Shown: piece after piece, positions 1,952 to 33,806 of the stretch
How positions within the stretch are numbered: the stretch's first letter is position 1
Layout of the letters: each line of letters opens with the position of its first letter
Origin: a virus
IMG/VR virus record: IMGVR_UViG_3300050014_000810
Location: 1-36,136 of that record
Strand: one strand, 5' to 3'
DNA length: 36,136 bases
Program-made: the position numbers and the translations under genes
The notes under the pieces: model-generated
The model's input: only the letters and a program-made list of their open reading frames with translations
Told to the model about the DNA's origin: nothing
The model's database searches: none

Positions 1952-3255
1952 CAGATCCTCCGGGTCGCACCGATAGGCAATAGTTCGACACTTTCGAGGT
2001 CGAAGTCCTGGCCGGTACTAGTCAGCTGGAAGGCGAAGTAGCGCGCGCGCAGCCCCTTGCCGAGGTTGATGCGGCTGCTCTTCATGTCCTTGACCTCCGC
2101 CTTGTAGATGTATTCCTTGTCGTCGCCGGTGATCAGCTTGAAGATGAACTCGCCTTCACCCCGGATACCGAGATAGGCAGCTTTGAACGCCGTGTAGCGC
2201 GAGCCCGCAAACTGTGCGAAACCCGAGATGATATCGGTGATGATAGGGGTGCCGTCGTCATCGGGCCCATCAAGTTCGAAAAGACCCTCTTTCGAGGCAC
2301 CCATGTATCGGAAGGATCGTCCCATTCTCGCGAAAGAATTGAAGTCATAATTAGTGTACTCGCTGATCGCGCCGGTGCGTGTGTTGATGGCCCAGGTCGT
2401 GAAACTGCCGCTCGGAGAGGCATAAGCGATGCTGAACTCGATGGTGTCGCTCAGCTCACCATGGTAGATGGCGGAGACCAGCTGCTCGTCGGTGATCTCG
2501 ATCCCGTCGTTCTCGACAACACGCCAGATCAGCGTGTGCCCCAGCACATCGGTGAGCGTGACACCGTCCGCCAACACGGGGCGACCGATGAACTGTCTGG
2601 AGACGTTGTCGGTGAGCCCGACGACATCGAAAATGCCGCCACCGAAGAAGGCGCTGAGGCTCGGGTGCAGCGCCAGCAGCTCGGCGATCTTGACCGAGTA
2701 GACGCCGGAGACCGTCAGGGCAGAGGAGACTTTGAGCTGGTCCAGAATGAACAGCGCGTGCGTGGCGGACACGACCTCGGTAATATTGAGCCGCTCGATG
2801 AGCCTCACAGTGAGGCCGTTGACCAGTGCATCGCTCAGCAGCGCCTGCCCGACCAGCGTCTGGTGGTAGCTGCTGCTGACAGACATCTGCGACGTCAGCT
2901 TGATCACGTCGTCGATCTGCGCACCGACGCCGTAGATGTACGAACTGGAATCCGTAAGATTGATCGACTCGGTGTTGAACAGCGAGAGGACCGCGACATA
3001 GGTGTCCGACAGACTCAGCGTTTCTGTCAGCCCCCAGATGATGGTCTGGATGTCCGCACTCACAGCCTCGGTGAACGCGACGATGTTCGACGTGTGATTG
3101 TAGGCAGGCGTCAAGGTCGATTGTCGACCATCCACGCTCACAGCCTCGGTGAACGCGACGATGTTCGACGTGTGATTGTAGGCATGCGTCAAGGTCGACG
3201 CGCTCACAGCCTCGGTGAACGCGACAACGTCGCTGGTATGTGTGTAGTCCGTCAC
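1951..3255 (-). CDS. Repeat-containing phage tail protein, 434 aa
   Basis: Starts at GTG 3255 with a strong GGAGGA site 7 nt upstream. Residues ~1-70 hold three near-identical copies of a unit reading roughly HTSxxVAFTEAVSA, followed by more diverged copies (SDTxxxxLS, TDxVS) to about residue 245. The C-terminal ~150 residues resemble a tail module common in podovirus-like phages: WAINTRTGAISEYTNYDF, then a segment on the surface signal of a sample (RSFRYMGASKEGLFELDG), then paired strands ending in LESVELLP. The same repeat reappears in the 996-residue protein at 11022-14012, 8 kb away. Function is probably a tail or fibre structural subunit; the exact position in the virion is not shown. 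Confidence 0.8.
   Translation of the reverse strand: MTDYTHTSDVVAFTEAVSASTLTHAYNHTSNIVAFTEAVSVDGRQSTLTPAYNHTSNIVAFTEAVSADIQTIIWGLTETLSLSDTYVAVLSLFNTESINLTDSSSYIYGVGAQIDDVIKLTSQMSVSSSYHQTLVGQALLSDALVNGLTVRLIERLNITEVVSATHALFILDQLKVSSALTVSGVYSVKIAELLALHPSLSAFFGGGIFDVVGLTDNVSRQFIGRPVLADGVTLTDVLGHTLIWRVVENDGIEITDEQLVSAIYHGELSDTIEFSIAYASPSGSFTTWAINTRTGAISEYTNYDFNSFARMGRSFRYMGASKEGLFELDGPDDDGTPIITDIISGFAQFAGSRYTAFKAAYLGIRGEGEFIFKLITGDDKEYIYKAEVKDMKSSRINLGKGLRARYFAFQLTSTGQDFDLESVELLPIGATRRI
3059..3225. repeat. In-gene DNA repeats encoding HTSxxVAFTEAVSA units
   Basis: A 48-bp block at 3059-3106 recurs identically at 3137-3184, and identity continues nearly unbroken for about 12 bp more. A shorter third copy (about 23 bp) begins at 3203. 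Spacings are 78 and 66 bp, both multiples of three. Near-identity at DNA level means recent duplication or active homogenisation, unlike the older, diverged copies further along the gene. Confidence 0.9.
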
Positions 3256-7998: not shown

Positions 7999-8408
7999 TG
8001 CTGATTACCCAGGGTTGTTGACCATCCGTTGTCTGTGTTCTGATTCGGTGAGAGCGTATTCGGGACCAGCGGACCGATCGCCGAATAGTCGTTGAGATGC
8101 TTGCCTCCTTCCGTAATGAGCCAAGGTAGTACGAAATTGGCGACATCGATCGGCAGCGCGAAGGGCCCCTCGATCGCGTTCATCGGCGCCGAGGCCGCGA
8201 TACCGAGCGCATCTTCGACGGCCAGGTTCTCCATTGCCGTATAGTCCCCGGACTTGAAGGCCGCGGACAAAGCAACGAGATTGCCGGTCATCGAGTCGAT
8301 ACCAGCGGCGAGCTGAGCCGGGGTGAGCGTCACCGGACCGACGACGAGAGACTTGCCGCCGGTCAGAAGGTTCGCCACGCTGGTGAAGAGATCGCCCAGC
8401 GCGCTCAA
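7995..8408 (-). CDS. Hypothetical phage protein, 137 aa, TTG start
   Basis: Begins at TTG 8408, which overlaps the upstream stop as TTGA and has GAGAAG just upstream. The product opens with an amphipathic segment (SALGDLFTSVANLLTGGKSL), then Ala/Leu-rich helices, and ends in a Ser, Pro and Asn-rich tail (NTLSPNQNTDNGW). There is no clear signal peptide. Position among membrane and lysis genes suggests a membrane-associated or accessory lysis role, but nothing proves it. Confidence 0.6.
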   Translation of the reverse strand: MSALGDLFTSVANLLTGGKSLVVGPVTLTPAQLAAGIDSMTGNLVALSAAFKSGDYTAMENLAVEDALGIAASAPMNAIEGPFALPIDVANFVLPWLITEGGKHLNDYSAIGPLVPNTLSPNQNTDNGWSTTLGNQQ

Positions 8409-11021: not shown

Positions 11022-14012
11022 TCAATGGATCGTAAGCCCGTAGACCATCCAGTTCGCTATGTGCGAAATCGTCACAGCGGGAGTTGTCCAGTAGGACCCG
11101 CTCTCGCCGGCATTAGTATCGGAATGCAGCAAACTGACCGTTACGCTGGAGGTGAAATTGCCGTTGAACCGCGCCGTGACGCCGCTGGGGTTGGTTATGG
11201 TCGCGCCATTATATACTTCCCATCCGAACAAGATTCCCAGACAGGTCAGACTGTTGTTGGTGACATTGACGCTATCCATGCTCACAGAGTCACCGACGCC
11301 TCCATTCGACGACTCGACCGTAGAGACGCCGCTGTAAACCGCCATATATGCAGCCTGATCACCTGTCACGAATGTAAGTGTGTCCGAGCCCGTCGCGATG
11401 CGCGACAGGATCATCGTGTAGTAACTGTCCTGCGTCTGGCTACTGACTAGAGTGTATCCAGCAGGGACATGGTAAGAGGAGTTGCACTGCATAAAGACGA
11501 GAATGAGATCGCCTACCACGGTGCCAGCCGGAGTTCCGAGTGTAGTGCCGGCAACCCCATAAGTGGTGCTATTCCCAACATAAGATACCGCCGCGTTGTA
11601 GACCAGCGTGCTCGCGCACACCGCCTCGGCGAGGGCGATCGACTCGGCGTCCAGTCTATATCCAGAAGGCAACTGACCGAGCACGTCGGCCACGCACGCC
11701 TCCCAGCGCTGACCTTCCGGGTACTCGACGCCGCCGTCCCAGTGAAATGATTGATCCAAAACGGTCATACCACAGGCGAGCGGTTGGCTGATGTGTGCGC
11801 GATGCACAGCCAGCGCAGCCGCGCCTAGCGTGGTCGCCAGCGCATCAGGCGCGGACGTCGTTCCGCGCGGGCGCGAAAACATGTGATTCTTGAACCCCAG
11901 CATCAACGACTCCGGCGCCGACACATGGCTGCGTGCGCAGGCCAGCACGGTCGCGGAGGGGCTCTCGGCGTAAGCAATCGGAGCCATGGACAGCCTGCGC
12001 CACGCTGCCGAGAGCGAGTGCTGACTCTCGGTTAGTGCCAGGCTGATGGTGGCTCCGGCGAGGTTACGGTTGCGCGCGAGCAGCGCTTCGTTCTCGTCCA
12101 CCCGATAGGCGATCGTCTCGGCCTGAAGCTGATGGAAAGCAAGAAGCGCGGCAGTGGATAGCGTTTCAGCGAATACATCAGCGTTCGAGGTATGAAGGCG
12201 ATGAGCCGCGAGACTCGCCGCGAATATGGCTTCGGCGATCGTGACCGTGTCGCTCGCGTGCGCGCGTGCCAGCTTTAATGTCGTAGCCGACACCGCCTCG
12301 GCGATGGCGATCGCCGCCGTGGCAAGTTTGCGATCAGCTGCGAGATAAATATTGGATGGCGCTTCGGAGAATGCCGCCGGTGTGCCCGCCAAGCCCCGAT
12401 TATACGTCCATGCCACGGCGGAAACCGCCTCGGCGAATACCGCCGCGGAAGATGTATGCAAATAGCCAGCATGGATACTCGCGACCGAGATCGCTTCCGC
12501 GAAAACAATCGTGTCAGAGGCATGCTTGTGATATGCGTGGAGCGTCGCCGCGGAGACAATCTCGGTAAAAACCGCGGTATCCGATGCGTGGAGATAATGA
12601 CCATCGGCCACGAGCGCCGCGGCCGAAACTGCCTCAGCGACAGCGACCGTGTCACTCACATGCGCGTGATTGAACGCAAGATTGGCACCAGATACAGCCT
12701 CAACGAAAACCGCTGTACTCGGATAAATGTAAGCTTCATCAGAAGGGACGTATACGACTACCGTGGGCGGAGTCTCGATCAGAACCGCCATAGCCTCGAG
12801 ATTGGCGCCGGAGAATCCCATCGACTGCGCGCCGCTGGGATTCGACGCAGGCCACGCCCATCCAGCGTTGAGGCTCGGGGCACCACCAGGATTAGAATTG
12901 TCGGCATCGAACGTCAGGCTAGGGTACGAGCTGAACGACTGGGGGTAGTTGTTGTAGTCGCCGAAGAAACAGAGAAGCAGATCATCCGCGGTGGCCGGCG
13001 TCAGGCTCGGCGCCGACTGCGGCGGTGAACCATATATGCTGCTGTGCTGACCGATGAGTGGCGCGACACCACCCATCCCGCTGACCACCACGTATTCATA
13101 TACTGTGCTCGCACCAGATGGTGTCCACGACGGGGCAACCGTGTCACCATAAACATAGGTGTGATAGTAGAGATAGAACGTCTCGGAGATCAGCAAAGTG
13201 TAGCCGGTCGGCGGCGTCGGCGCACCGGTATCCTGCGTGATCGCGAGAAAGATAAGATCACCGACGTTCGGCTGGATCGGCAGCTGCGGCGTGATCGGGC
13301 TGCCACTACCCGTACCACCCTGTAAAACGCCAGAAATGTATGGTCTGGGAGGGGCGACTACCGCCGCCGAAGCACCGCTCGCTTTCAGCGCGACCTGCGC
13401 GCCGAATTGTGGCCCAGATTGAACGCCCCAAGGACCTAGCGACAGATCTCCGGTCGCTGTACCGTCGGTGAGTGCCTTGTCCCCAATGACGAGGAGGGCG
13501 CCACTGGGGTCTAACGCTTGTTGCGTGAGGCCACCTGGCAGAGTTGGTGTCCCGCCGCTGCCATAATATGCTGATGAGTAAAAAACGACGAGCTGAGAAC
13601 CCATATAGTTCGGGTTCAGTGACGGGGCTCGATAATTGTCTGCGACCGAAGCACCGCCGCCACTAACCGCGAGCACGCAAGCGGCTAACGTATCAATCGG
13701 GCTCGACGTGTCGCAGCCTGAATAAGATGTGCCGGCGTAACCCCACGTGGCGCCACTGACTCCTGTCGAGAAGGTAACCGAGCTCGGGTCGCCGGACTGG
13801 AATACGCGCCAGCACAGAATAGCCCCGAGAGTCGAGGCCAGCACCCACCAACCAGAGGGCACGGTGATGTCGGAGAAGCCGCCACCAGCGCTCTGCTGGT
13901 TCACCAACACGACAGTGACATCGCCGATCGTCGTACCAGCAGGCAACGGGACCGAGGCCGTGGTGCCTGCGCTCAGACCACCGGCATTCGCGGCTCGTAA
14001 TGCGATAGCCAT
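11022..14012 (-). CDS. Large repeat tail/fibre protein, 996 aa
   Basis: Start at ATG 14012 with AGGA 7 nt upstream. Three copies of a beta-rich domain can be seen, at about residues 10-110, 225-330 and 810-910; each has [PI]xxGxxxGDLxxxxxxQ, a PxGYTLL-type turn and a YxGV-like end. Between the second and third lies a long array (about residues 430-810) of 20-30-residue units reading roughly HxSDTVxxAEAVSAATL, with later copies more diverged. The same unit occurs in the 434-residue protein at 1951-3255. Architecture fits an elongated receptor-binding or tail-surface protein. No enzyme motif is visible. Confidence 0.8.
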   Translation of the reverse strand: MAIALRAANAGGLSAGTTASVPLPAGTTIGDVTVVLVNQQSAGGGFSDITVPSGWWVLASTLGAILCWRVFQSGDPSSVTFSTGVSGATWGYAGTSYSGCDTSSPIDTLAACVLAVSGGGASVADNYRAPSLNPNYMGSQLVVFYSSAYYGSGGTPTLPGGLTQQALDPSGALLVIGDKALTDGTATGDLSLGPWGVQSGPQFGAQVALKASGASAAVVAPPRPYISGVLQGGTGSGSPITPQLPIQPNVGDLIFLAITQDTGAPTPPTGYTLLISETFYLYYHTYVYGDTVAPSWTPSGASTVYEYVVVSGMGGVAPLIGQHSSIYGSPPQSAPSLTPATADDLLLCFFGDYNNYPQSFSSYPSLTFDADNSNPGGAPSLNAGWAWPASNPSGAQSMGFSGANLEAMAVLIETPPTVVVYVPSDEAYIYPSTAVFVEAVSGANLAFNHAHVSDTVAVAEAVSAAALVADGHYLHASDTAVFTEIVSAATLHAYHKHASDTIVFAEAISVASIHAGYLHTSSAAVFAEAVSAVAWTYNRGLAGTPAAFSEAPSNIYLAADRKLATAAIAIAEAVSATTLKLARAHASDTVTIAEAIFAASLAAHRLHTSNADVFAETLSTAALLAFHQLQAETIAYRVDENEALLARNRNLAGATISLALTESQHSLSAAWRRLSMAPIAYAESPSATVLACARSHVSAPESLMLGFKNHMFSRPRGTTSAPDALATTLGAAALAVHRAHISQPLACGMTVLDQSFHWDGGVEYPEGQRWEACVADVLGQLPSGYRLDAESIALAEAVCASTLVYNAAVSYVGNSTTYGVAGTTLGTPAGTVVGDLILVFMQCNSSYHVPAGYTLVSSQTQDSYYTMILSRIATGSDTLTFVTGDQAAYMAVYSGVSTVESSNGGVGDSVSMDSVNVTNNSLTCLGILFGWEVYNGATITNPSGVTARFNGNFTSSVTVSLLHSDTNAGESGSYWTTPAVTISHIANWMVYGLTIH

Positions 14013-14076: not shown

Positions 14077-14505
14077 TCAGGTCAACGTCACCAGCACGCC
14101 ACCGGCGGGAGTGTCGACGAAGGTCTCGCCTGCCACACCGTTCAGCGTGATGCTGGAACCATAATCGTACCAGGCGATCAGCGGCTTGTCGGTGGGGGTG
14201 CTATCGTAATACACGACATACCGGAATGGCCCCATGTTACCGGTGACCGACGTCCAGGTCGTCGCGCCCGCGGCGAGCGACTCGACCCCGGACGAGTTCG
14301 ATACGCTGGTGCCGGACACCGTAGCGCCGCCGGTCGTGTAACCGGCGGCGCTGGCGAGCTCGGTGCCTGAAATATCCGAATACTTGGCGTTGGTGATTAC
14401 CGGCAGCGTGTTGGTCAACATCACCTTGATGGTGTCGGTGTTGAGGTTCACGAGACCTTTGGCGAGATAGTCTGTCCATAGATTGAACTTGGTTGCAGTA
14501 GTGAT
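14077..14505 (-). CDS. Phage structural protein, apparent AUC start, 142 aa
   Basis: A perfect AGGAGG (14511-14516) lies 5 nt before an ATC codon at 14503-14505. From there the frame reads TTATKFNLWTDYLAKGLVNL then NTDTIKVMLTN, matching the N-terminal pattern of a known small phage protein family (fold pattern FxxWxxxLAxGxxNLxxDxxKVMLTN...). The first canonical start is a GTG at 14451, which would remove this conserved part. The frame is also in phase with the stop of the giant gene, only CAAGCCAAACAGGAGGCTGCC apart. The remainder has GYTTGGA, GPFRYVVYYDSTP and PLIAWYDYGSS. Probably a tail or virion accessory protein. Confidence 0.8.
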   Translation of the reverse strand: MTTATKFNLWTDYLAKGLVNLNTDTIKVMLTNTLPVITNAKYSDISGTELASAAGYTTGGATVSGTSVSNSSGVESLAAGATTWTSVTGNMGPFRYVVYYDSTPTDKPLIAWYDYGSSITLNGVAGETFVDTPAGGVLVTLT

Positions 14506-14526
14506 GGCAGCCTCCTGTTTGGCTTG

Positions 14527-17500
14527 TTACCTTCCGAGATATTGCTGAAGAACAGGCCACGCGGCCATCGGAACATTCGTGGGCTTGCCTGTCGCCCTCG
14601 CCCTTTGTAGCTGATTCGCTTGTTTCATGTAAGCAGTCCCTAGGGTGTTGGACATCGGTGTCCCCTGATGCGCAGGGTCCAAATCATAGGCCCTAGCCTC
14701 CTCCAGCGCCGCCAGAACACCAGCCCTATCACGGTTCTGCATCGCCACCTTGTACTTCTGTTCGATGACCCCGGCGTGGAACTCGCGACCCTCCATCGCA
14801 CCGATGGCGGCGCGATTGGTTTCCTGATAGTTCGACTTCGCCCCCGTCTCGAAACCGAGCGCGGTGGCGAGCACATCACGCGCGTCGGCCGTGAGCGGCA
14901 TCTCCATGCCGTTTTTGTCCACATAGCGCGTTTTACCGTCATCTCCTTGGACCATGCGGAAGGCACCGACGAGGTTGCGCAACGACGTCGGCAGGAACTC
15001 CTGCATACCCTTCAGCGTCTGGCCGTTGGCGATGTCACGGCCGCCGACGACCCACTTCTGTAGAATACTGAACGGCGATCCCGCAGCCTTGGAGAGATAA
15101 TCCGGGTAGGCGTCCTCGAACTTACGGCGGTCCTCCAGCAGGCGCGTGCCGGGGAGAATGTCCGCGTCGCCGAGGTCGGCCGTGTCGACGCCCAGATAAC
15201 GCGGCAGGCCGCGGCTCAAGAGCGCGCCGACGTCGGGGCCGAACATGCTGCGTAAAAAGTGTTGATAATGCGCCTCGATGTCGTAGCCCTCTCCCTCGTC
15301 GAACGCTTCCGACACACGCGTCATCGCCCCCGCCGCCCAGCCGGCCCCCGGCAGACCGAGCGTGCCGGCGGTCAGGATGACGGCCGCGCCGTGCGCGAGA
15401 AGGAACCTGCGCGCCTCGACCTTCTCTTCCGGGTTCGCTGAAGAGATCGCGTGATGCACTTCGAGGTAGAGCTTCTCCAGCAGTTTGAGTTGATAACCGT
15501 GAAAAGCCGTGACGATCTTCGACATGGAACCAACGATACCTTGCTCGCCGAAAGCGCGCGGCTGGTTCGACGCCTCCCAAGGCATCATGGCTTCGTTCAG
15601 CGCATGAAGGGCATAATCATGAATCTGCTGGTCGTTCCAGCCCTTCTGCCGGCCGAGACGCTCGGCTGCCAGAGCGACGCTCAGGCGGCTGGCGGTCTCG
15701 CCGTAGACCGCCGTCATGTTGCCCCAGTGAAGGGCCTTGTTCAGCCACGTGTGCGCTGTCCCCTTGTCCAAGGTTCCGAAGCTTCCGACGTGCCCCATGC
15801 CAAGCTCGACCGCGCCGCTATTGATGATCCTGGTCAAGAATTTGATGGTGTGTTCCGCGACGCGGGCCTTACGGAGAATATCCGGTGTGAGCGCCCCGCT
15901 CACTCGATTCTCGCCGGTCGTCGCCATCGCACGAATGATCTTGAACGCATCGTTGGTCGAAGCGCCGATCGCCAGCGCCGAGTTCACCGCCCCATGTTTC
16001 TTGATGAACTCAGGCCACGCCAACAGCCCCACTTGGCTCATCTGCTCCAGCACGTAGCTGGGCGACATGCCTAGATAGAAGCCGTGGTTAATAGCCTGTG
16101 CCATGTCCCTGTACGTGTGCGGCACCCGCGCACCACTCTGACTGTCGCGCAGCATGATCTCGTCGACAGCTTTTTGTATTCCGAGACGCGTCTGATGATC
16201 GTAAGCCGGGTTGGACGCCGCCGCGAGACGCTGCTGACGCAAGCCGGCCAAGATGTCCATGCGGTAGCGTAGCGACGCCAGTTTAGCCACCGCGTTCGAT
16301 GTCACCGAGCTGGAAAACATCGCGTTGCGCGTCATGTCGGTGGAATAGCCTTGGATGCTCTGCTTTTCAGCCATCAGCTTCTTGATGGAATTGTCCGGCA
16401 GGACATCCATCGCCAAAGCGCGCATCTCGCGCAGGAACTGACCTTTCTGTTCGTCGGTCATCGCCTTGATCATCGGATGCGCCTCGGCGCTCGATACGAA
16501 TTCCTGCACGAACTTCGGTGCTACGTCCTGCATTTCCTGACTGTTGACGGCTCCGCTCGATATTTCCTTCTCTGGATCGGCATCGAGCAACCCTTTGGCT
16601 TTGGCCGCGTTGGCGATATCCAGCATGCCAGCGGCGTCCTGGCTGCTCTTGAAGCGCATGAATACGTGCCCCTGCGACGACAGCTGGTTCATCGAGACAT
16701 CGCCATAGTCCTTGGACATCATCTGCTGAAGCTCGCGGATCGCAGCCGGATCCGGCGCGCCGTTCGCGAGCGTCCTGATGTACATGGAAACGAAATTGTC
16801 TCCTGTACGCCCCAAGTGCACATAAGGCGCACGTTTATCCTCCGCGGCGGTGTGCTCGGCGAATTTCGCCTGCATGGATGCTAAAGGCGCGGTCTCGGTA
16901 CGGATGGCGGTCTTTCCGGCCTCATCCGCGCTGGACAGCGCGCCACTGCGCTCCTTCAGATAATCCCTGATGCCAGCCTCACGCTTCAGATACTCGGACT
17001 TCATGAACGCCGCGGCGCCATTGATGTCCTGGTGCAGGTCGTTATGTGCGAAATAGTCGCGGAACGGATCGTTCTCGAAGCCTTTGATGCCTTCCGTCTT
17101 GTAGACGGACTTCACCAATTGTTCCTGGAACCCTAGTTTGTGTCCGTAATTGTCCATCACGCCGGCAGCTAAACTATTACGCAGCAGCTGCTGTCCTGGG
17201 TTCGGCGTCGAGCCATCACGTGATTGCCCGAGCTTGTTCCAGTTGGCGCGCGTTTCCATATGGACCGCTTCGAGGTCCTTCACATTCGGTGCATTGTGCA
17301 GCCAAGAATTCTCGCCCCAGGTTTTTGTCGGATCGACGTTGAACTCACCCATCGCGCGGCGCACGCTGTCGACGGCGATACCCATCTTCTTGTCGCCGCG
17401 CGCGTACTTATCCAACGCCTGGATGGCACGCACCTTGGGCATGTCGATGCGGCCCTTCAACTGGCCCGAATAGACAGCATTGACGCGGTGCTGCTCGATG

Positions 17501-20500
17501 CCATCCAAAATGCCCTTCCAGAACCGACCCATGCTATGTTCCGACGACCACTGGTCCATGCCGGCGAGTAACTTGTCGCCTTTGAAGCCAGCGAAACCGT
17601 TCTTCACACCTTGCCAAGTCAGGTCACCGAGCTTGGCGGAGAACGACCCGACATAGCGTTGAGTGCGCCCCATCGTGTCTTCCATGCCGGGGACCGTCTT
17701 CACCAGGATACCCTGCGAGCCGCCGGTGAAGCCGCCCTTGGAGACAGTCTGCAAGCGCTGCTGGAACTGGTCATCCGGCTTGGCCGAGAGTCTCTCTCTG
17801 GAGTCCCGCAGGAACTTGGCCACGTCGCTGACCGAGTAAGTCTCGAACTTCTTAGCGAACTCGGTCAGCCCGAAATCGCGCAATCTGGTCGCGATGGCTT
17901 GTTTGAACTTGCCGACGATCGCCATGAGGGCGAGTTTCATCTTGCCGACCGTCGTGCTGGCCGAGGCGTGCGCGATCATTTCCTCGACCGCGACGACCTT
18001 GTCGCGCGCCGACAACGGGAAGCCTTTGGCCGGAAGATAAGATGCCACGCCCTCGCTATGCAGCGATCGATCCCACACGCCGAACTGTCTGGAGATCTTC
18101 TCGATATTGTCGACGCCGCCGGCACGATCGAAGATGTCGGCGATGCCATGCGCGTAAGAGTCCGAACCGTGTGGCCCAAGCAGCGCCTCTGTGGCCATAT
18201 GGCCCATGACCTCGTGCTTGAACGTGTCTTCGATGTCGGCGCGCGTGCGCGCCTTGTCCAGGATCGTATATGCATGACCGTTGTCGTAGAAGCCGGAGAG
18301 TTCTTGCGGATCGAGCCCTTGTTTCACTGCCTGTGAAAGGAACTCGGGAGGCATGTCACCGACCGTGTCGAGCAGATGCACACGCGATTGAGCATCCGGG
18401 TTTAGCCTCGATGCAAGTTCGTTATGATGTTGACGCAGAGCTTCTTGCGAAACGCTCGAGTTCATGCGCTCTTGGGTCATCGGCTCGACGGTCTTGAACA
18501 GCGGATGACCTGTCATCTGCGTCGCCGCGCGCAATTGGTCGGTGATGGGGAAGGAGTGAACGGTTCGCGTTGTCGGGACGTCTTTGGTCAGCTTACCACC
18601 GAGCAGCTCAGCCACGCCGGTGCTGCCATGCTCGACGACCGCCTGATTAAAATTCACACCCCTCTCTAGTGCGTCAGCAACCGCACGTAATTGTCGTGCA
18701 TACGAAACGCTAGGTGCGTGGGTTGCTAACTCGCGTACTTCCGCAGACGGGCGCCGTGGGCCTTCGTAGCTCCACCTATCATTACCGATAGGAAGCTCAT
18801 ATGGTTCGACTCTCGAGCCGAACTTCTTGACGAGCTTGTTGGCCTCGTTCACCATCATCTCGTTGTAGGCGACCTTCATCCCGCGTTCGCGTACAGCGTC
18901 ACCACCGTAGCGTGCGAAGTTCGTCTCGCCGGTGTCCCAGGTAATACGATCCTGCCCGGTGCGTACAGCCTCGTGGATCATGTGCTTGAGCATCAGGCTC
19001 ATCCACTGAGTGGTGTTCTTCAAGGGGGCTTCCGGCACGCCCTTGGTCGGGTCACTGGTGTCGCGGACATTTTGCTCGGCTTTATCGACGGCCACCTGAG
19101 CAGCGTAGGTGGTCTCCCTAAGACGGATGTATTCCTTACGCAGACTAACGAGTCCTTCTGAATCTGGACTAGTGCGGAGCTTTATGGCTTCACGAAGTTT
19201 ATCTTCGGCCCGGTTCTCTTCAGCTAATGCTTTCGTAAGAGGGTCTTTCGCAGCCTCCAGTTTCTTCTGCGCTTTCTCTATGGCTACAGGATCAGGAACG
19301 CGCTTTTGATTCTGCAATTCCCTTAAACGAGCAGCAGTCGGCATCAGCACCTCACGCTGATATTTGTCACGCGCTGCACTCAGTTCACTATAGGAAGCGT
19401 CATGTGCGTCATAATCCTGCCGCGCTCGTACCACATCCGGGCGCGAGGCATCGTACGCGTGCTGTTTACTTGCTATCCGCAGCCGTTCAACAGCAGCACC
19501 CAATTTGTCGGCTTCTGCGTAATATTCTCTGTCGAGTGTGTTAAATTTATCGAGGGCCGTATCATGCTCGGCCTGACGCTTAGCCAACTCGACAGGATCC
19601 GGCTTGAACCCGCGCGGACGATAACCTTCGTCTTGTGCCTTCTGATGCAGGTCGCTCTGAGCCTCACTGGAGTGCAGGATCTTCTCGCTATTCGCAGCGA
19701 CGCGGTTATCCATACGGTTGTGCCCGATGAAGTTAGTCTCGCCAGGCCAATGAACGTGTGTGAAATCATCTTCGGATTCCTTATACCGCTCCAGATAAGC
19801 TGGTTTTTCCTCCGGATCACTAAGGATATGCCTGAACAAAACCTCACGGTAGTTGGTGCCGCCAGGTGTTGTGTATGGTTCATAGTGCACATTCCCCTCG
19901 TCCAGCGTGACGGTGTGTACAGCAGGGAATGCTTCTTTGAAGTGCGCGGCGATCTGTGCCTTGGTGATCGGGCCTTTCTGGTCAGCCAACCAATTATGCG
20001 TGTGCGTCCAGTCGAGCTCTGTCTGCTTCGCACCGGCACTTTTCAGCGTCGCTTCCCATGCCGGGCCTGGCATCTTGTCTTGCTTGATGTTGTCTAGCGC
20101 GCGCAACGCCGTCGAGTAGCCGAGACCTTCAGGCAACGGCTCTTGTCGGCGCTGCGCGAGGATATCTTTGGGATCGAGTGCCGATCGAATATTATCGGGA
20201 TTCAAAACGGCAACCTGATCGCGACCGCGGCTCTCTGGTATCCCCCGCAAAATCACGGTGTCCAGCCCTTGTTGTCTGGCACGCGCGATTGCCGCGGAAG
20301 TCGCCCCTAAGCTGCCCCTGAAGTTAGGCTTGGGCTCTGGCTCACCCTCCGAAGCATAGAGCTTTTTGTTGCTCTCGTGTATCTGCATATCTTCTTGGAA
20401 ATTCTTGTCGAACATTCTCCCGAGACGCTCGGCGTCTTCTACCGACGTCGGACGGCCCGAATATTTCGTCGCAATCTTCCGCATCGACGCACGAAATTCT

Positions 20501-22707
20501 GGATCGAGAGGGAGACGCTGCACATCGAAAACCGCGGATTTGCCGGGGGTCACACGAACCGGGTAAACACGCGGCCCAGCCGCGTCTTCCTCCTTGTGAG
20601 AAAAAGATCCGGCGTAGCCTGCCGCTTCCTCCGGAGATGCAGAAAAAAACGAAACACCTTTCTCGCCCACGGCCGAGAATTTCCCTGCGGCGTTTACATC
20701 GAACTTATCGAACGAGATAGGGCTGGATGTGCCATGATATAACCGCCATTCTTCAGCATTCGGGTCTACACGTCCATAAGGGTAGATCGGAGATGGGCTA
20801 TTGGGCTCTGGTCGGCGCTGCGCGAGGATGTCATCGGGATTTTCCGGCATCTGCTGGCGTTGCTGCTGCCGAAACCGTTGAAAACCTGCGACCGTCTGTC
20901 GTATACGCGCGGCTTCCTGCGTCTCCGGCGTCAGAGGAGCATGCGGCGCCTGATCTTGCGGCGCCTGATCCGAAGGCCTCAAGCTTTCGAGGTCGGCTTG
21001 CGCGATGTCTTGGATACGCGCCTCGAGATTTTCATCGTTTTGTCCGGGTGCAGCTTCTGGGGCAACGGCATCCCGCGCGGCGTCGCCGCCTGGAACTCCG
21101 CCGCCAGCTCGGGCATTTCCGCGAACATCATCGCTCGCTGCGCTTGCGACTTGAACGGCATTGCGTGGATCTCCATCGATAAAAAAAGCGTTATATTGCT
21201 TATCTTCTTCGCTGGGGACTTTGAGGAATTTCTCACCCGGCCGCGTCGGCCGGTCAGCCTCGACGAGACGCATGTTCAACGCCGGATCAGCATGCAGCTC
21301 GCGCAATGCGTCATTGAACTGACGCGGCGTCACCGCCCCCTCTTCCTCATCCCGCTCGGCATTGACCTTGGCATACAGATCCTTCAGTTCGACCGGCCGG
21401 TTGAATCGGCCGGGCTGGTCGATCGAATCATTCTTGCCGCGCGTCAGATCGGAAACAGCCTCGACAATCTGCTGCTGAAGGGCGAGTCTGGGCGACGGTT
21501 CAGGAGTTACCCCGTCAGCCGGCCGCGGCCCTTGCTCTTGAGGGTGTACGGGCTGAGTTTCTTGATTGACGTCGCGCGGTCCGGCAGCCGCTTCCATGGC
21601 GGCGTCTCGGCTTCCAGCCGCTTCGCCAGCTCGGGATTGTTCTCCCGCGTCCACTGGCGCTGTGCCTCGCTCTTGTACAGTGGTTGGTTCTCCTGCCTGA
21701 GGTTCAGACGGTGCTGCTTCTGCCTGAGGTTCTGGTGGTGTACCCGGCACCTTCGATGCGGCATCGAGCGCGTTCGGGTCGCTGAGAATGCTCTCAGGCG
21801 CCTTGCGAAGGCCGAACAGGCCGCCCATGACGCCGCCGATCGCGCCGCTTTCCAGCGTCGACGAGACGATCGACTTCATCTTACCCATGGTCGGAATATC
21901 AGGCCGCCATGCCACATCGGCCGCTTTTTGCAGGCCGCCGCCGACCGCGCCGACCGCACCCATGCCGAGGCCGCCGTGAATGACGCGGCTGAGCAGCTTA
22001 CCTTCCGTACCCCCCGCGAGCATGCCAGCACCGTGACCAGGCATGATCGACTCGATCGCGCCGAGCGGCACGCCGAGTGCGAGCGCACGCGCCGCGTCCA
22101 GCTGTGACTCGCCGCCTGGCTGCTGCATGGATGATTCGTGCTGGGCAGCGATCGCGCTAGGCACCTGCACAGCCATGCCACCGAGAATACCCGCCGCGGT
22201 GCGGGCGCCGACAGCGGTCGCCGCCTCACCGGTCAGAGCGCCAGCGCCGCCCAAGAAGCTCGGTAGTGCCGCGCCGATGCGTGATAGACCAGCTGGAATC
22301 GCGACTTCAGGCGTCGCGTACATCGCCGCGCCGGCACCGACCAGCGCGGGCACCATCTGGCCGGCCGTGTAGGCAGCCTTGCTGGCAAAGGTGCCGGGAC
22401 TGTCGAACCAACCAGCTTGCTCGAGATCAGGACGGCCTTGCTCTTGCGCGCGCGCATTCAGATAGTCGGACAGACGTTGTGCGTCCATCCACGGCGGGAT
22501 CTTGCTGACGTCTTCGGGGGCAACAGCCGCCCGCTGAATGGTAGCGACAGTCCCGGCAAGCGCGCTGCTGAGCCCGATCGTGCCGACCTTCAGCCCCGCC
22601 CACGGCGCCCAGCCGCCATTCGGGGGCGGCGGTGTCAGCCCACCCGCCCGCATGTAATCCGCCGCGGTCGGCAGAGTGTTCGGATCGAAACTGCCCCAAC
22701 TCGCCAT
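14527..22707 (-). CDS. Giant polyvalent virion protein (ART-like, PGGTNYREVL-domain, metallopeptidase-like, LPD38-like), 2726 aa
   Basis: Start at ATG 22707, overlapping the previous stop (ATGA). The N-terminal ~300 residues hold hydrophobic Gly/Ala-rich stretches; 310-400 and 510-620 are low-complexity linkers. Residues ~650-845 match polyvalent ADP-ribosyltransferase domains (RLYHGTS, GVSFFSASPEEAAGYA). Residues ~885-1290 carry PGGTNYREVL, SEAQSDLHQKAQDEGY and, beyond a coiled-coil insert (~1040-1215), APLKNTTQWMSLMLKHMI, a module seen in many polyvalent proteins. A HEVMGH motif near 1498-1503, with an EE about 75 residues on, marks a metallopeptidase-like domain. Residues ~2270-2560 resemble LPD38. 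Such proteins are thought to enter the host with the DNA and counter its defences. No RNA-polymerase motifs were recognised. Confidence 0.88.
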   Translation of the reverse strand: MASWGSFDPNTLPTAADYMRAGGLTPPPPNGGWAPWAGLKVGTIGLSSALAGTVATIQRAAVAPEDVSKIPPWMDAQRLSDYLNARAQEQGRPDLEQAGWFDSPGTFASKAAYTAGQMVPALVGAGAAMYATPEVAIPAGLSRIGAALPSFLGGAGALTGEAATAVGARTAAGILGGMAVQVPSAIAAQHESSMQQPGGESQLDAARALALGVPLGAIESIMPGHGAGMLAGGTEGKLLSRVIHGGLGMGAVGAVGGGLQKAADVAWRPDIPTMGKMKSIVSSTLESGAIGGVMGGLFGLRKAPESILSDPNALDAASKVPGTPPEPQAEAAPSEPQAGEPTTVQERGTAPVDAGEQSRAGEAAGSRDAAMEAAAGPRDVNQETQPVHPQEQGPRPADGVTPEPSPRLALQQQIVEAVSDLTRGKNDSIDQPGRFNRPVELKDLYAKVNAERDEEEGAVTPRQFNDALRELHADPALNMRLVEADRPTRPGEKFLKVPSEEDKQYNAFFIDGDPRNAVQVASAASDDVRGNARAGGGVPGGDAARDAVAPEAAPGQNDENLEARIQDIAQADLESLRPSDQAPQDQAPHAPLTPETQEAARIRQTVAGFQRFRQQQRQQMPENPDDILAQRRPEPNSPSPIYPYGRVDPNAEEWRLYHGTSSPISFDKFDVNAAGKFSAVGEKGVSFFSASPEEAAGYAGSFSHKEEDAAGPRVYPVRVTPGKSAVFDVQRLPLDPEFRASMRKIATKYSGRPTSVEDAERLGRMFDKNFQEDMQIHESNKKLYASEGEPEPKPNFRGSLGATSAAIARARQQGLDTVILRGIPESRGRDQVAVLNPDNIRSALDPKDILAQRRQEPLPEGLGYSTALRALDNIKQDKMPGPAWEATLKSAGAKQTELDWTHTHNWLADQKGPITKAQIAAHFKEAFPAVHTVTLDEGNVHYEPYTTPGGTNYREVLFRHILSDPEEKPAYLERYKESEDDFTHVHWPGETNFIGHNRMDNRVAANSEKILHSSEAQSDLHQKAQDEGYRPRGFKPDPVELAKRQAEHDTALDKFNTLDREYYAEADKLGAAVERLRIASKQHAYDASRPDVVRARQDYDAHDASYSELSAARDKYQREVLMPTAARLRELQNQKRVPDPVAIEKAQKKLEAAKDPLTKALAEENRAEDKLREAIKLRTSPDSEGLVSLRKEYIRLRETTYAAQVAVDKAEQNVRDTSDPTKGVPEAPLKNTTQWMSLMLKHMIHEAVRTGQDRITWDTGETNFARYGGDAVRERGMKVAYNEMMVNEANKLVKKFGSRVEPYELPIGNDRWSYEGPRRPSAEVRELATHAPSVSYARQLRAVADALERGVNFNQAVVEHGSTGVAELLGGKLTKDVPTTRTVHSFPITDQLRAATQMTGHPLFKTVEPMTQERMNSSVSQEALRQHHNELASRLNPDAQSRVHLLDTVGDMPPEFLSQAVKQGLDPQELSGFYDNGHAYTILDKARTRADIEDTFKHEVMGHMATEALLGPHGSDSYAHGIADIFDRAGGVDNIEKISRQFGVWDRSLHSEGVASYLPAKGFPLSARDKVVAVEEMIAHASASTTVGKMKLALMAIVGKFKQAIATRLRDFGLTEFAKKFETYSVSDVAKFLRDSRERLSAKPDDQFQQRLQTVSKGGFTGGSQGILVKTVPGMEDTMGRTQRYVGSFSAKLGDLTWQGVKNGFAGFKGDKLLAGMDQWSSEHSMGRFWKGILDGIEQHRVNAVYSGQLKGRIDMPKVRAIQALDKYARGDKKMGIAVDSVRRAMGEFNVDPTKTWGENSWLHNAPNVKDLEAVHMETRANWNKLGQSRDGSTPNPGQQLLRNSLAAGVMDNYGHKLGFQEQLVKSVYKTEGIKGFENDPFRDYFAHNDLHQDINGAAAFMKSEYLKREAGIRDYLKERSGALSSADEAGKTAIRTETAPLASMQAKFAEHTAAEDKRAPYVHLGRTGDNFVSMYIRTLANGAPDPAAIRELQQMMSKDYGDVSMNQLSSQGHVFMRFKSSQDAAGMLDIANAAKAKGLLDADPEKEISSGAVNSQEMQDVAPKFVQEFVSSAEAHPMIKAMTDEQKGQFLREMRALAMDVLPDNSIKKLMAEKQSIQGYSTDMTRNAMFSSSVTSNAVAKLASLRYRMDILAGLRQQRLAAASNPAYDHQTRLGIQKAVDEIMLRDSQSGARVPHTYRDMAQAINHGFYLGMSPSYVLEQMSQVGLLAWPEFIKKHGAVNSALAIGASTNDAFKIIRAMATTGENRVSGALTPDILRKARVAEHTIKFLTRIINSGAVELGMGHVGSFGTLDKGTAHTWLNKALHWGNMTAVYGETASRLSVALAAERLGRQKGWNDQQIHDYALHALNEAMMPWEASNQPRAFGEQGIVGSMSKIVTAFHGYQLKLLEKLYLEVHHAISSANPEEKVEARRFLLAHGAAVILTAGTLGLPGAGWAAGAMTRVSEAFDEGEGYDIEAHYQHFLRSMFGPDVGALLSRGLPRYLGVDTADLGDADILPGTRLLEDRRKFEDAYPDYLSKAAGSPFSILQKWVVGGRDIANGQTLKGMQEFLPTSLRNLVGAFRMVQGDDGKTRYVDKNGMEMPLTADARDVLATALGFETGAKSNYQETNRAAIGAMEGREFHAGVIEQKYKVAMQNRDRAGVLAALEEARAYDLDPAHQGTPMSNTLGTAYMKQANQLQRARATGKPTNVPMAAWPVLQQYLGR
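20979..21161 (-). CDS. Nested out-of-frame small protein, KSxAQR family, 60 aa
   Basis: This lies wholly inside the giant gene, same strand, different frame. ATG at 21161 has GGAG 9 nt upstream. The product starts MPFKSQAQRAMMFAEMPELA, then ATP...LPQK, and ends in a basic tail. This matches a small phage protein family with the pattern MPFKSxAQRxxMFAxxPExAxxxxxxTPxxxxLPxK. The giant protein in the same stretch is low-complexity linker (about residues 515-575), so little would constrain that frame. Expression is unproven. See the second copy at 21507-21680. Confidence 0.5.
   Translation of the reverse strand: MPFKSQAQRAMMFAEMPELAAEFQAATPRGMPLPQKLHPDKTMKISRRVSKTSRKPTSKA
21507..21680 (-). CDS. 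Second nested KSxAQR-family ORF, ATG lost or CTG start, ~57 aa
   Basis: Also inside the giant gene and in the same alternative frame as the copy at 20979. It reads YKSEAQRQWTRENNPELAKR, then LEAETPPWKRLPDR and a basic tail. It aligns with the other copy at KS-AQR, PELA, TP and LP. Where that copy has ATG this one has CCA, but CTG follows at once (21678-21680), with AGGAG 9 nt upstream, the same spacing as in the other copy. An in-frame ATG exists at 21764 without a ribosome site. It may use CTG or may be a relic absorbed into the giant frame. Confidence 0.4.
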   Translation of the reverse strand: MYKSEAQRQWTRENNPELAKRLEAETPPWKRLPDRATSIKKLSPYTLKSKGRGRLTG

Positions 22708-26186: not shown

Positions 26187-27242
26187 TTAGTCGGTGGCAC
26201 CGACTTCGAGACGCGCCAGCCAAGCATCCTGAAGGATGATGGTCGTGGTCCAGAGCTTCCAGCCGACCGTACCGCGCTGCCCGAGAGGGTCGCCTGCCGC
26301 CGGCTTGGGGTTGACCACCATCGGCGTCATCGAAGACTTGCCCTTCAAGGGCACGATGCCGAAGCAATCGCGCGAGAAGACCAAAATCGGATAGACGTCG
26401 CTGGTTGCGCTGGAACCGGTGTAGCGAAGGCCGGCCGCGACGGCCGAACCACCGGCGCCGAGCCAGGGGGTCATGACGGTGGAGGTGAGATAACGCACCT
26501 GCTCGCAGGAGCCGATCTCGCCTTCGAACGGCGTGGTGTGCGGGCCGTAATCCGCAACCACTTTGAAGCCCGTCAGCGAGCGGATGTCGGTTTCGAGATC
26601 CGGATGACAGACAGCCATGAAGGAAGCTTCGACCGACTTCGTGTTGAAGTCGGTGGACGAAGCGACCACCTGGGTGATCTTCTTGGCGTTCTGGCGGTTG
26701 AGGGCGGTCGTGACGCGGCGCTGATCCTGCAAGGAGATCGCGGTGACGATGCTGGAACGACCCGCGACGCTGTTGGCGTAGAAGACGTTGGTTCCGGCCT
26801 TGAGCACGTTGAAGCGCAAGGTCTCGACGGTGACCGCGGCCTGTTCACCCAGGATGTCGGTCATTTGCTGCAAGATCGGATCGGTATGCACGTCTTCGAT
26901 GACGTCGGTGATCACCATGAAGTCGCCGTACTGAGCCAGCGTCGCGGTGTAGTCCTGGTTGGTCAGGACCGAGCCGGAGGGAGTCACACCCTCGATGAGC
27001 GGGGTCGTAGCGACTGGAATGAAGAAAGCCGAGGATCCGGTGCTGTCGGGACCTGCCGCGCCGGTGGCGCCCTGCATGAAGTAACGACGGAACTTGGCGG
27101 TCTGCGTCGAATTGGTCGGCAGCGGGTAAACCTGCCCGAACTTCTCCAGATGCAGATAAGGCATTGCGCGCTTGAGCATGCGGACAACGCTGTAGGCGGC
27201 GACGGCTGGCGAAATGTCACCATACCCTGTAACTGCTGCCAC
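26187..27242 (-). CDS. Major capsid protein, N4-gp56 family, 351 aa
   Basis: GTG start at 27242 with AAGGAG 7 nt upstream. The whole length fits the N4-gp56 capsid family: TGYGDISPAVAAYSVVRMLK, then PYLHLEKFGQVYPLPTNSTQ, TAKFRRY, TPLIEGVTPSG, ATLAQYGDFMVITDVIEDVH and, near the end, VGWKLWTTTIILQDAWLARL. The protein forms the HK97-fold shell. The scaffold gene lies just upstream, as expected. Length is near the usual range. A 142-bp leader precedes it, unusual in such a packed genome and consistent with extra control of this highly expressed gene. Confidence 0.95.
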   Translation of the reverse strand: MAAVTGYGDISPAVAAYSVVRMLKRAMPYLHLEKFGQVYPLPTNSTQTAKFRRYFMQGATGAAGPDSTGSSAFFIPVATTPLIEGVTPSGSVLTNQDYTATLAQYGDFMVITDVIEDVHTDPILQQMTDILGEQAAVTVETLRFNVLKAGTNVFYANSVAGRSSIVTAISLQDQRRVTTALNRQNAKKITQVVASSTDFNTKSVEASFMAVCHPDLETDIRSLTGFKVVADYGPHTTPFEGEIGSCEQVRYLTSTVMTPWLGAGGSAVAAGLRYTGSSATSDVYPILVFSRDCFGIVPLKGKSSMTPMVVNPKPAAGDPLGQRGTVGWKLWTTTIILQDAWLARLEVGATD

Positions 27243-27384
27243 GATATTTCTCCTTGGATGTCAAGAGTTTACTAATTGACTAAACAATTTAGTTCTGCCT
27301 GATCGTCCAAGGAGTGCCCGCTTGTTTGGGACTCTGGCGCAGCGCGTCGCTATGTAGTGGCCTACTACAACTTATTGTCAGTAG
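27243..27384 (-). promoter_or_regulatory. 142-bp leader between scaffold and capsid genes
   Basis: The longest gap in the head operon. It holds a hairpin (TGTAGT/ACTACA, 27353-27369, loop GGCCT) and an AT-rich dyad (GTTTA 27267-27271 with TAAAC 27281-27285, nested with AATTG/CAATT). No good -35/-10 pair was found on the minus strand. A translational control leader or a phage-specific promoter is possible; neither is proven. Confidence 0.35.
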
Positions 27385-31364: not shown

Positions 31365-33806
31365 CTAGACAAAATGGTAGTTGGGAAGGTTCTGGGTGAG
31401 AGGCCGCTTGCCACGGCCGTCCCCGTCGCCGCCATGATAGCGCAGTTCCCGCTCCGTCCGCCGGTGAAAATACCTGCATAGGTAACCAAAGCTGTCGCCT
31501 GGATGCGAATACTGATTCTTTTCCGGGGCAATTCCTTTAATGTCGTCTTTCTTGGTGTCCATCGTGTAGCGCCAGCCGCCCTTGAGCGCCCGAATCAGTG
31601 TCGGGCACTCCTTGGCGTCGATTTGTAACGCCGCGCCACCCACCGTCAACCGCGTTGTGAAGTGCTCGATGGCGTCGAGACGCAGCGGCAGCCGGTTGTT
31701 GGTCTCGCAATGCACCATGAAGTGCTGCTTGAAGCGGTCGACAACCGTCTTTTCGTCCGTTTGCGTTCGATTGTTGGCCGCTGGATCCGCCGCGATGACG
31801 ATCATGCCAGGTACATGGCCGGGGATGTCCGGGAACCGGCGCCGCAGGTAAGGCTTGAGCTTCTCGCTGATCAGCCGGTCGGCGCCGTAGCCCGACTGCA
31901 CCAGCTCCCCCAGCACGTTGAGCCTGCCTTGCAGGTCCTCTTGCCCAAAGATGAGTGCCGAACCAGTTATGCCTGGATCGAGGCCGATAATAAGCGGTAA
32001 GTGCTTGTTATATCTAATGTCGCCGTTGGATATGTGGATGCTTGCCTTGAACGTCGGAACGACCGCCTGGCCGGAGATGCTGAAGCCCCACTCGGCCTCG
32101 ACGAACTGCTTGACCCAGGCCTCCGAATTGCCTGCCGCGAGGTTCAGATAATACTTGTTGGACCCGTCGCGCGGCGGCAGGTTAACTAGATTCTCAGCGT
32201 CCGGGTCAAACCCGCCAGGCTGGTGGAAATAGGTTATCGTCCGATTATCGTCCGGCATTCTCGGTGCATCGAGATTGGCCCTGGTCATTTTCCGGACCTT
32301 GGTCGCATCGTGCAGATAGTCGAACCACCAGCTATCCTCGGTGCTCGGGTTGGAAGACCCCCAGACACCGTAGTTGGTGGCGCCACCATCCTTGGGAGGC
32401 GGAAAACGCCCTGCCCGCGCGCTGATGGCCTCGAGGATCTTCTTCGGGATCTGCACGAACTCGTCGATCAGAACGAAAGTCACTTCGAGGGAAAGCACCC
32501 GCGCCACGTCGTCTTCGGTGTCCAGAGGACGAAACAGCACCTCACACTCGACGTCACCGAATCTAAGTGTGAAGATCTTGTTCGTGGCCTGCCACTTGCC
32601 GGCCTGCCCATCCTTGAACCAGTAGTTCCAGGATACTAATGTCGTATCGGTCAACTGAGGATTGGTATTCCTCACGATGACGGCGCGGGTGCGACGTATG
32701 CCGTCAGCCCAGGGCGCTTGCAGACTGGCCATGTAAGCCAACTTAAAGAAAATTCCGGTAGTCTTACCGGAGTTTCCAGTGACAAAGATTGTGTCATTGC
32801 AGCGCGCGACAAAAAATCCGGTCGAGGTCGAAAAGCAGTATTTCATCCCATTGATCAGGCCACCGACCGGCTCAATACACGAGATCCGGGTCGTGTCGGT
32901 CCGGATGGCCGCCTTATTTTTATGGTTGTCCGCCACACGAATCTGGACGGTGTACTGAGTCAACCATTCCGGGTGTTGTGAGTCGTAGACCGCTTTGATC
33001 GTTGCCCGGAACCCGCACGCGTGGGCTGCGAACTGGATCGCGTCGGCATGCCTCTTTACCGTCGAGTAGTAGCGCTTCTCGGCATGCTCGTTCAGTCCAT
33101 CCCAACGCAGACACTCGTCGAGCACAATCTCCAGCTGGCGTGTCGAGAGCCCCCAGACGAAGTTCAATGACTTGGAGGCCTCCGGCCACCGCAGCGTGAA
33201 CCGTGTCTCCGTCTCACGTTGAGCATAAGTGGTCTCCTTCCAAGGTATGCCGGCATCCCTCAGCAGCTCGCGCAGGCGCGTCTTCTTGTATTCCTTGCGG
33301 ACGACGATGAACTGCTGCTGGCCACGCTCCGGGATATGCCCGTCCGCGCTGAAGGCGATACGCATCCTGATCTCAGCTTCTCCCATCCGGACGTCGTCGC
33401 GAACAAGCGAGAAAGTCGTAGGGATAGTCCTCCTGGACGGATGAGCAGCGCATTCCGCCGCTGTCGCGACTTGCGAAACACCGCGATAGTCATTGTAGAG
33501 AACCTTGTGCTCAGGCGACAGCTCCATCTCCAGGGAGCCGCTATCGAACCGAATGAAGGGTGTCGTCGCGGGTAGGCATACGTACTCGGCCGGCTCGAAG
33601 AAGACCTCACCGTCTTTGTAGACCGCCACCAGATCGTCGGTCTGATAAGCGTCCATCCGCCGCCAGCCGGCCGGCGTCAGAAATTCACTGTCAGCCGGCA
33701 AGCAGCCCACCGGCCCTACGATCCAGTCGAAAAAAAGGTCGTGCGGCTTGTAGTCCTTGATGAACGCGTTGATCGTATCAGGCGGGACGTAGTCGATTAT
33801 GCTCAC
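31365..33806 (-). CDS. terL: Terminase large subunit with intein in Walker A, 813 aa (502 aa after splicing)
   Basis: Start at GTG 33806, overlapping the upstream stop (GTGA). The host protein is split at residue 34: IVGPVG, then an intein from Cys35 to Asn345, then SGKTTGIFFK. Joined, this gives the P-loop GPVGSGKT. Walker B (FVLIDE) lies near 444-449. The nuclease domain has the three acidic sites of the RNase-H fold: Asp610 in IGLDPG, Asp674 in AADP and Asp771 in HPGDS. It drives ATP-dependent packaging and cuts concatemers. Without splicing the ATPase site cannot form. Confidence 0.95.
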   Translation of the reverse strand: MSIIDYVPPDTINAFIKDYKPHDLFFDWIVGPVGCLPADSEFLTPAGWRRMDAYQTDDLVAVYKDGEVFFEPAEYVCLPATTPFIRFDSGSLEMELSPEHKVLYNDYRGVSQVATAAECAAHPSRRTIPTTFSLVRDDVRMGEAEIRMRIAFSADGHIPERGQQQFIVVRKEYKKTRLRELLRDAGIPWKETTYAQRETETRFTLRWPEASKSLNFVWGLSTRQLEIVLDECLRWDGLNEHAEKRYYSTVKRHADAIQFAAHACGFRATIKAVYDSQHPEWLTQYTVQIRVADNHKNKAAIRTDTTRISCIEPVGGLINGMKYCFSTSTGFFVARCNDTIFVTGNSGKTTGIFFKLAYMASLQAPWADGIRRTRAVIVRNTNPQLTDTTLVSWNYWFKDGQAGKWQATNKIFTLRFGDVECEVLFRPLDTEDDVARVLSLEVTFVLIDEFVQIPKKILEAISARAGRFPPPKDGGATNYGVWGSSNPSTEDSWWFDYLHDATKVRKMTRANLDAPRMPDDNRTITYFHQPGGFDPDAENLVNLPPRDGSNKYYLNLAAGNSEAWVKQFVEAEWGFSISGQAVVPTFKASIHISNGDIRYNKHLPLIIGLDPGITGSALIFGQEDLQGRLNVLGELVQSGYGADRLISEKLKPYLRRRFPDIPGHVPGMIVIAADPAANNRTQTDEKTVVDRFKQHFMVHCETNNRLPLRLDAIEHFTTRLTVGGAALQIDAKECPTLIRALKGGWRYTMDTKKDDIKGIAPEKNQYSHPGDSFGYLCRYFHRRTERELRYHGGDGDGRGKRPLTQNLPNYHFV
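32772..33704 (-). mobile_element. Intein with LAGLIDADG-like endonuclease region, 311 aa
   Basis: Residues 35-345 of the terminase frame. It starts CLPADSEFLTPAGW (Cys1, block A), has LSPEHKVLY (block B), and ends YCFSTSTGFFVARCND then TIFVTGN before Ser+1 (blocks F and G). The residue before the last Asn is Gly, not the usual His. Between these lie two short LAGLIDADG-like motifs (IRMRIAFSADGHI and IVLDECLRWDG) typical of dodecapeptide homing endonucleases; the DG acids are kept. The unit therefore looks able to splice and perhaps to home to empty alleles. Confidence 0.9.

Follow-up and report, generated by a model that had tools for sequence, protein, structure and literature searches.

An apparent AUC start codon behind a strong Shine-Dalgarno sequence, recurrent in the phrog_644 family of phage tail-type proteins

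The 36,136-nucleotide stretch of viral DNA analyzed here (the window; positions 1 to 36,136 of IMG/VR virus record IMGVR_UViG_3300050014_000810) contains a minus-strand gene for a 142-residue minor tail or fibre-tail-adaptor-like protein that is very likely translated from AUC, a very rare start codon, at 14505-14503 by fMet initiation, with the weak codon rescued by a strong Shine-Dalgarno sequence and synthesis presumably throttled as a result. The site of the start is well supported: its alignment with the ATG of related genes, together with the codons found in its nearest relatives, makes AUC the best-supported reading, and it is from this conservation that we infer initiation there. A sequence-only reading of the window had proposed such a start for a structural gene, and both the arrangement of the site and the identity of the gene bear this out.

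On the minus strand the TAA (14529-14527) of a giant upstream gene (14527-22707, with its ATG at ~22707) is followed by CAA GCC AAA CAG GAG GCT GCC and then by ATC ACT ACT GCA ACC AAG TTC AAT, in the same frame as the giant gene. This confirms that a perfect AGGAGG (14511-14516; predicted duplex energy about -9 to -10 kcal/mol) lies 5 nt ahead of the ATC, separated from it by the spacer CTGCC (14506-14510), and relative L147 has the same AGGAGGCTGCC leader. The frame closes at a TGA (14079-14077) after 142 codons, so that the gene spans 14077-14505. We found no in-frame ATG, GTG or TTG between the giant gene's TAA and the ATC, as had been noted, and the first standard in-frame start is a GTG (14449-14451) 54 nt downstream of the ATC. 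The next gene downstream (11022-14012, minus strand) encodes 996 amino acids, has an ordinary ATG start, and has no Pfam or PHROG match.

The window contains three copies of the motif AGGAGG-N4-9-ATC where shuffling predicts 1.56, and the motif is not significant alone; a second AGGAGG-ATC at 8096-8109 was discounted because it lies inside the reading frame of another gene. The ATC site described here stands above chance because it falls at the exact N-terminus of a protein family and recurs in relatives. No RNA structure was found at the AUC start (z=+1.0), and the window contains no tRNA genes, so no altered initiator tRNA is seen there. Elsewhere in the window, the gene for the major head protein begins with a GTG that has an in-frame ATC immediately before it (27242-27247), following AAGGAG, and the better spacing is that of the GTG.

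Among the genes of the window, which is from a tailed phage, are those for terminase, a portal-type protein and the major head protein; an 813-residue open reading frame in the terminase region (31365-33806) has a PhoH-like profile at residues 31-350 and a terminase large subunit profile at residues 346-785. Searching phage records by DNA similarity identified no near relative, and a plasmid search gave no matches. The 142-residue product matches phrog_644 in a profile search (E=2.2e-15, residues 9-123), and annotated relatives include the minor tail protein of Mycobacterium phage MooMoo (gp21), a homologous protein from a family whose sampled members nearly all start at ATG, GTG or TTG. An AlphaFold model of the product (pLDDT 82) has a fold that may be similar to that of the fibre-tail adaptor of Ralstonia phage GP4 (PDB 8jou; VIA-align Z 8.6, rmsd 3.4 over 120 residues), although the two share only 11% identity, and also resembles the T4-type baseplate chains 5iv5_BJ and 9f4a_A0 (VIA-align Z 12-13). 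Foldseek gave a weak match to the GP4 8jou-like fold (E=0.009, TM about 0.56), and a sequence profile compared with solved structures gave weak, unrelated matches only. The MooMoo annotation and the fold match agree with the designation of a structural gene, and the product is a candidate adaptor in this phage.

Members of phrog_644 open with M-A-x-F-N-K-F straight after the start, and the start codon can therefore be read by alignment. The window sequence ITTATKFN aligns to MATFNKFN without a gap, and the distance from the ATC to K-F-N is exactly that from the family ATG to K-F-N, in keeping with the view that the family pattern begins at the ATC. Among 287 distinct relatives the codon at the aligned start is ATG in 260, GTG in 15, TTG in 4, ATC in 5, ATA in 1, CTG in 1 and unclear in 1; these counts include searches targeted to ATH, such that the overall frequency of AUH (third base not G) is biased. 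Start-blind searches returned three AUH genes (L003, L078 and L564) in roughly 205.

The earlier suggestion that the same codon be examined in relatives was informative, since the start is ATC in L003 and ATA in L564, the two nearest, and a non-canonical start is thus conserved among the three (ATC, ATC, ATA). In L003 (~65% identical to the window) the ATC follows a weaker Shine-Dalgarno sequence, GGGAG, at 8 nt, and in L564 (~65% identical), recovered in a final start-blind protein search with the window and L003 as queries, the arrangement is TAGGAGGTTCCA-ATA with AGGAGG at 5 nt, as in the window. Members of the window clade are all metagenomic contigs. Further afield, L078 and L153, which come from two data sets and differ at 2 positions in 8 kb, are one virus and both have TAGGAGGCGACA-ATC, while L139 has AAAGGAGAACAAAA-ATC and L147 has ATA after its AGGAGGCTGCC leader, each being a single contig from the ATH-targeted search. 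L371, found likewise, lies in an isolate genome (Bradyrhizobium sp. CSA112, the only cultured carrier among those found) and has TAGGAGGCGACA-ATC, and in its sibling Bradyrhizobium prophages an identical TAGGAGGCGACA leader leads into ATG.

Two other candidates were set aside. L421 (CTG) was discounted as one base removed from L422 (ATG) in gene and leader: position 1923 of L421 and 4001 of L422 mark the sole mismatch in 4.15 kb, CTG versus ATG at the start codon, which may be either a SNP or a sequencing error. L100 (TCG), which adjoins the window clade, was not counted as AUH, as it has an in-frame ATG ~27 codons upstream (about 2920-3000) that would add a signal-peptide-like extension (MNKIMSCFGTAAITLATWLALSVGAEA). 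In the CSA112 prophage the gene immediately upstream (L371 3600-3852) looks by eye like the terminal part of an HNH/AP2 homing endonuclease (GLKGVHFHKQSGLWRARI...), the siblings have a different gene in that place, and an insertion of this kind may have touched the start codon.

Starts other than ATG, GTG and TTG have stronger Shine-Dalgarno pairing than ATG starts (MWU p=0.001), and AGGAGG is present in 4 of 6 AUH genes as against 19 of 260 ATG genes (Fisher p=0.0006). This enrichment is an independent test because the search patterns left out the Shine-Dalgarno sequence. Gene families neighbouring phrog_644 on the same contigs, scored by the same rule, gave no AUH starts in about 508 distinct genes; centroid clusters were used for these controls, single-linkage clusters having been rejected as too mixed. 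In L003 and L564 too, the AUH gene follows a homologue of the giant gene, with about 30-33% identity among the three. L437 and L440 (start 4001), which also lie behind the giant gene, use TTG after AGGAGGCTACA, and members that follow the giant gene seem to have more than their share of non-ATG starts (three AUH and a TTG lineage among about eight).

The three nearest genes are far diverged from one another. Synonymous divergence (dS) is 1.34 between the window and L003, in the two other pairs it is 4.2 or too large to measure, dN is 0.33-0.39 among the three, and dN/dS for the window and L003 is about 0.25. Because ATC or ATA has been stable across synonymous divergence that is near or past saturation it is not a recent error. 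A tree of 110 proteins places the window, L003, L564, L100 and the long-branch L102 in one supported clade (96/85), although with about 140 columns from a short protein the details are uncertain, and L102 (ATG, on a very long branch) lies inside the clade with poor support. The AUH label requires five changes on this tree, gains or losses, at least four of which are forced by supported branches, and against shuffles, of which 2 in 500 scored as low, it is clustered.

The occurrence of a non-G third base in the window, L003 and L564 (C, C and A) suggests that the weak start is maintained rather than being a recent accident. Near-neutral drift, a rival to the purpose of the AUC start and not to its site, has close to an even chance of being the explanation: a low-copy protein would tolerate a weak start given a strong Shine-Dalgarno sequence or coupling to the upstream gene, with no regulation involved. 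The scattered single cases among ATG siblings (L139, L147 and L371) fit drift, as does the pairing of AGGAGG with a TTG start in L437, whereas the window, L003 and L564 all lack a third-position G even though one substitution would restore ATG. Somewhat less probable, and put forward tentatively, is that the phage clade selects against AUG at this virion gene, the third base drifting between C and A but not to G. A near-cognate start, controlled by IF3 of the host and by the supply of ribosomes, would then set how much tail adaptor is made, and this arrangement would have evolved several times in one gene family.

Three alternatives bear on the site itself, and recurrence in relatives, the Shine-Dalgarno enrichment and the lack of AUH in the control families make all of them unlikely. 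The first is that the true start is the internal GTG at 14451, the upstream 18 codons being untranslated. This is a standard codon in an open frame, yet starting there would delete the conserved K6 and F7, as the sequence-only reading had argued in saying that the conserved part would be lost. The start of the ATG relatives aligns with the ATC and not with this GTG, a scan for Shine-Dalgarno pairing of -3 kcal/mol or stronger reported none for it, and the internal candidates lie at differing codons across the AUH relatives; we regard it as improbable for the main start. Every AUH case examined does have a standard start within the gene, 10-28 codons from the AUH codon, and a truncated product could arise from it.

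Programmed readthrough of the giant gene's TAA, generating a fusion of about 2,870 residues in which the small gene needs no start, is more improbable still. It draws some support from the window, where a single in-frame stop lies between the two genes; two in-frame stops separate them in L003, the giant gene is in another frame in L564, the upstream gene of L078 is unrelated and in another frame, and an AGGAGG with ideal spacing would be left unexplained. The third alternative is that the codon was originally ATG and has been altered, by a null mutation or by an error of sequencing or assembly, for which single-base cases such as L421 and L422 offer a precedent. It is just as improbable given that several contigs of independent origin, one of them from an isolate genome, carry ATC or ATA at this codon, and that a non-ATG codon is kept at such divergence with a dN/dS of about 0.25 for the window and L003.

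The proposed AUC start has the anatomy of several known bacterial ones. According to the literature, non-canonical starts are read by the ordinary initiator tRNA, disfavoured by IF3, and offset by a strong Shine-Dalgarno sequence. The infC gene, encoding IF3, starts with ATT in E. coli, ATC in Streptomyces and AUA in S. aureus (PMC5472188, PMC13009471); the Streptomyces case agrees with the earlier remark placing AUC starts mainly in regulated genes. The infC gene shares with the phage gene an AUH start whose third base varies among non-G bases, but infC autoregulates its own product, whereas no feedback is known for the phage gene and its tail-type protein. Streptomyces sigR starts with GTC in 32 of 34 cases and GTT in 2 of 34, behind a strong conserved AGGAGGTG, and is repressed by IF3 (PMC5472188); the likeness is of a strong Shine-Dalgarno sequence with a start codon lacking a third-base G, while sigR is a host regulator with GTC rather than AUC, and the IF3 effect shown for sigR may apply to the phage gene by extension. 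The S. aureus genes cvfC1 (AUU) and ccpN (AUA) likewise have conserved non-canonical starts with extended Shine-Dalgarno sequences, and in poor medium their expression is about 10% of that from AUG (PMC13009471), although these are bacterial genes with starts mapped by ribosome profiling and the phage start is predicted from sequence. The phage gene thus appears to share the features of infC-, sigR- and ccpN-type starts, a conserved non-canonical codon and a strong Shine-Dalgarno sequence (that of L003 being weaker). In a search of the open-access full-text literature, no previous description of a phage gene with an AUC start came to light.

Initiation at the AUC would proceed with the ordinary initiator fMet-tRNA(CAU) pairing at bases one and two of the codon and mismatched at the third, with the near-perfect Shine-Dalgarno sequence and its 5-nt spacer making up for the weak codon. 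The product would be M-TTATKFN..., with the Met probably removed, giving a small tail or fibre-adaptor protein. By analogy with the bacterial genes, we infer that the AUC would limit synthesis to a small fraction of the AUG level and confer sensitivity to initiation factor IF3, and any adaptive value might lie, for example, in a low copy number of a tail adaptor.

Bacterial regulatory genes supply the handful of known cases in which a non-AUG start is conserved, and here such starts appear to recur in a family of phage virion proteins. The strongly conserved N-terminus of phrog_644 lets the start codon be read in hundreds of genomes, and the natural series of AUG, GUG, UUG, AUC and AUA with matched leaders is well suited to testing how Shine-Dalgarno strength buys start-codon freedom. 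Gene callers restricted to ATG, GTG and TTG would truncate or miss such genes, and the weak start signal apparently used in this group of bacterial viruses is one that standard gene finders overlook.
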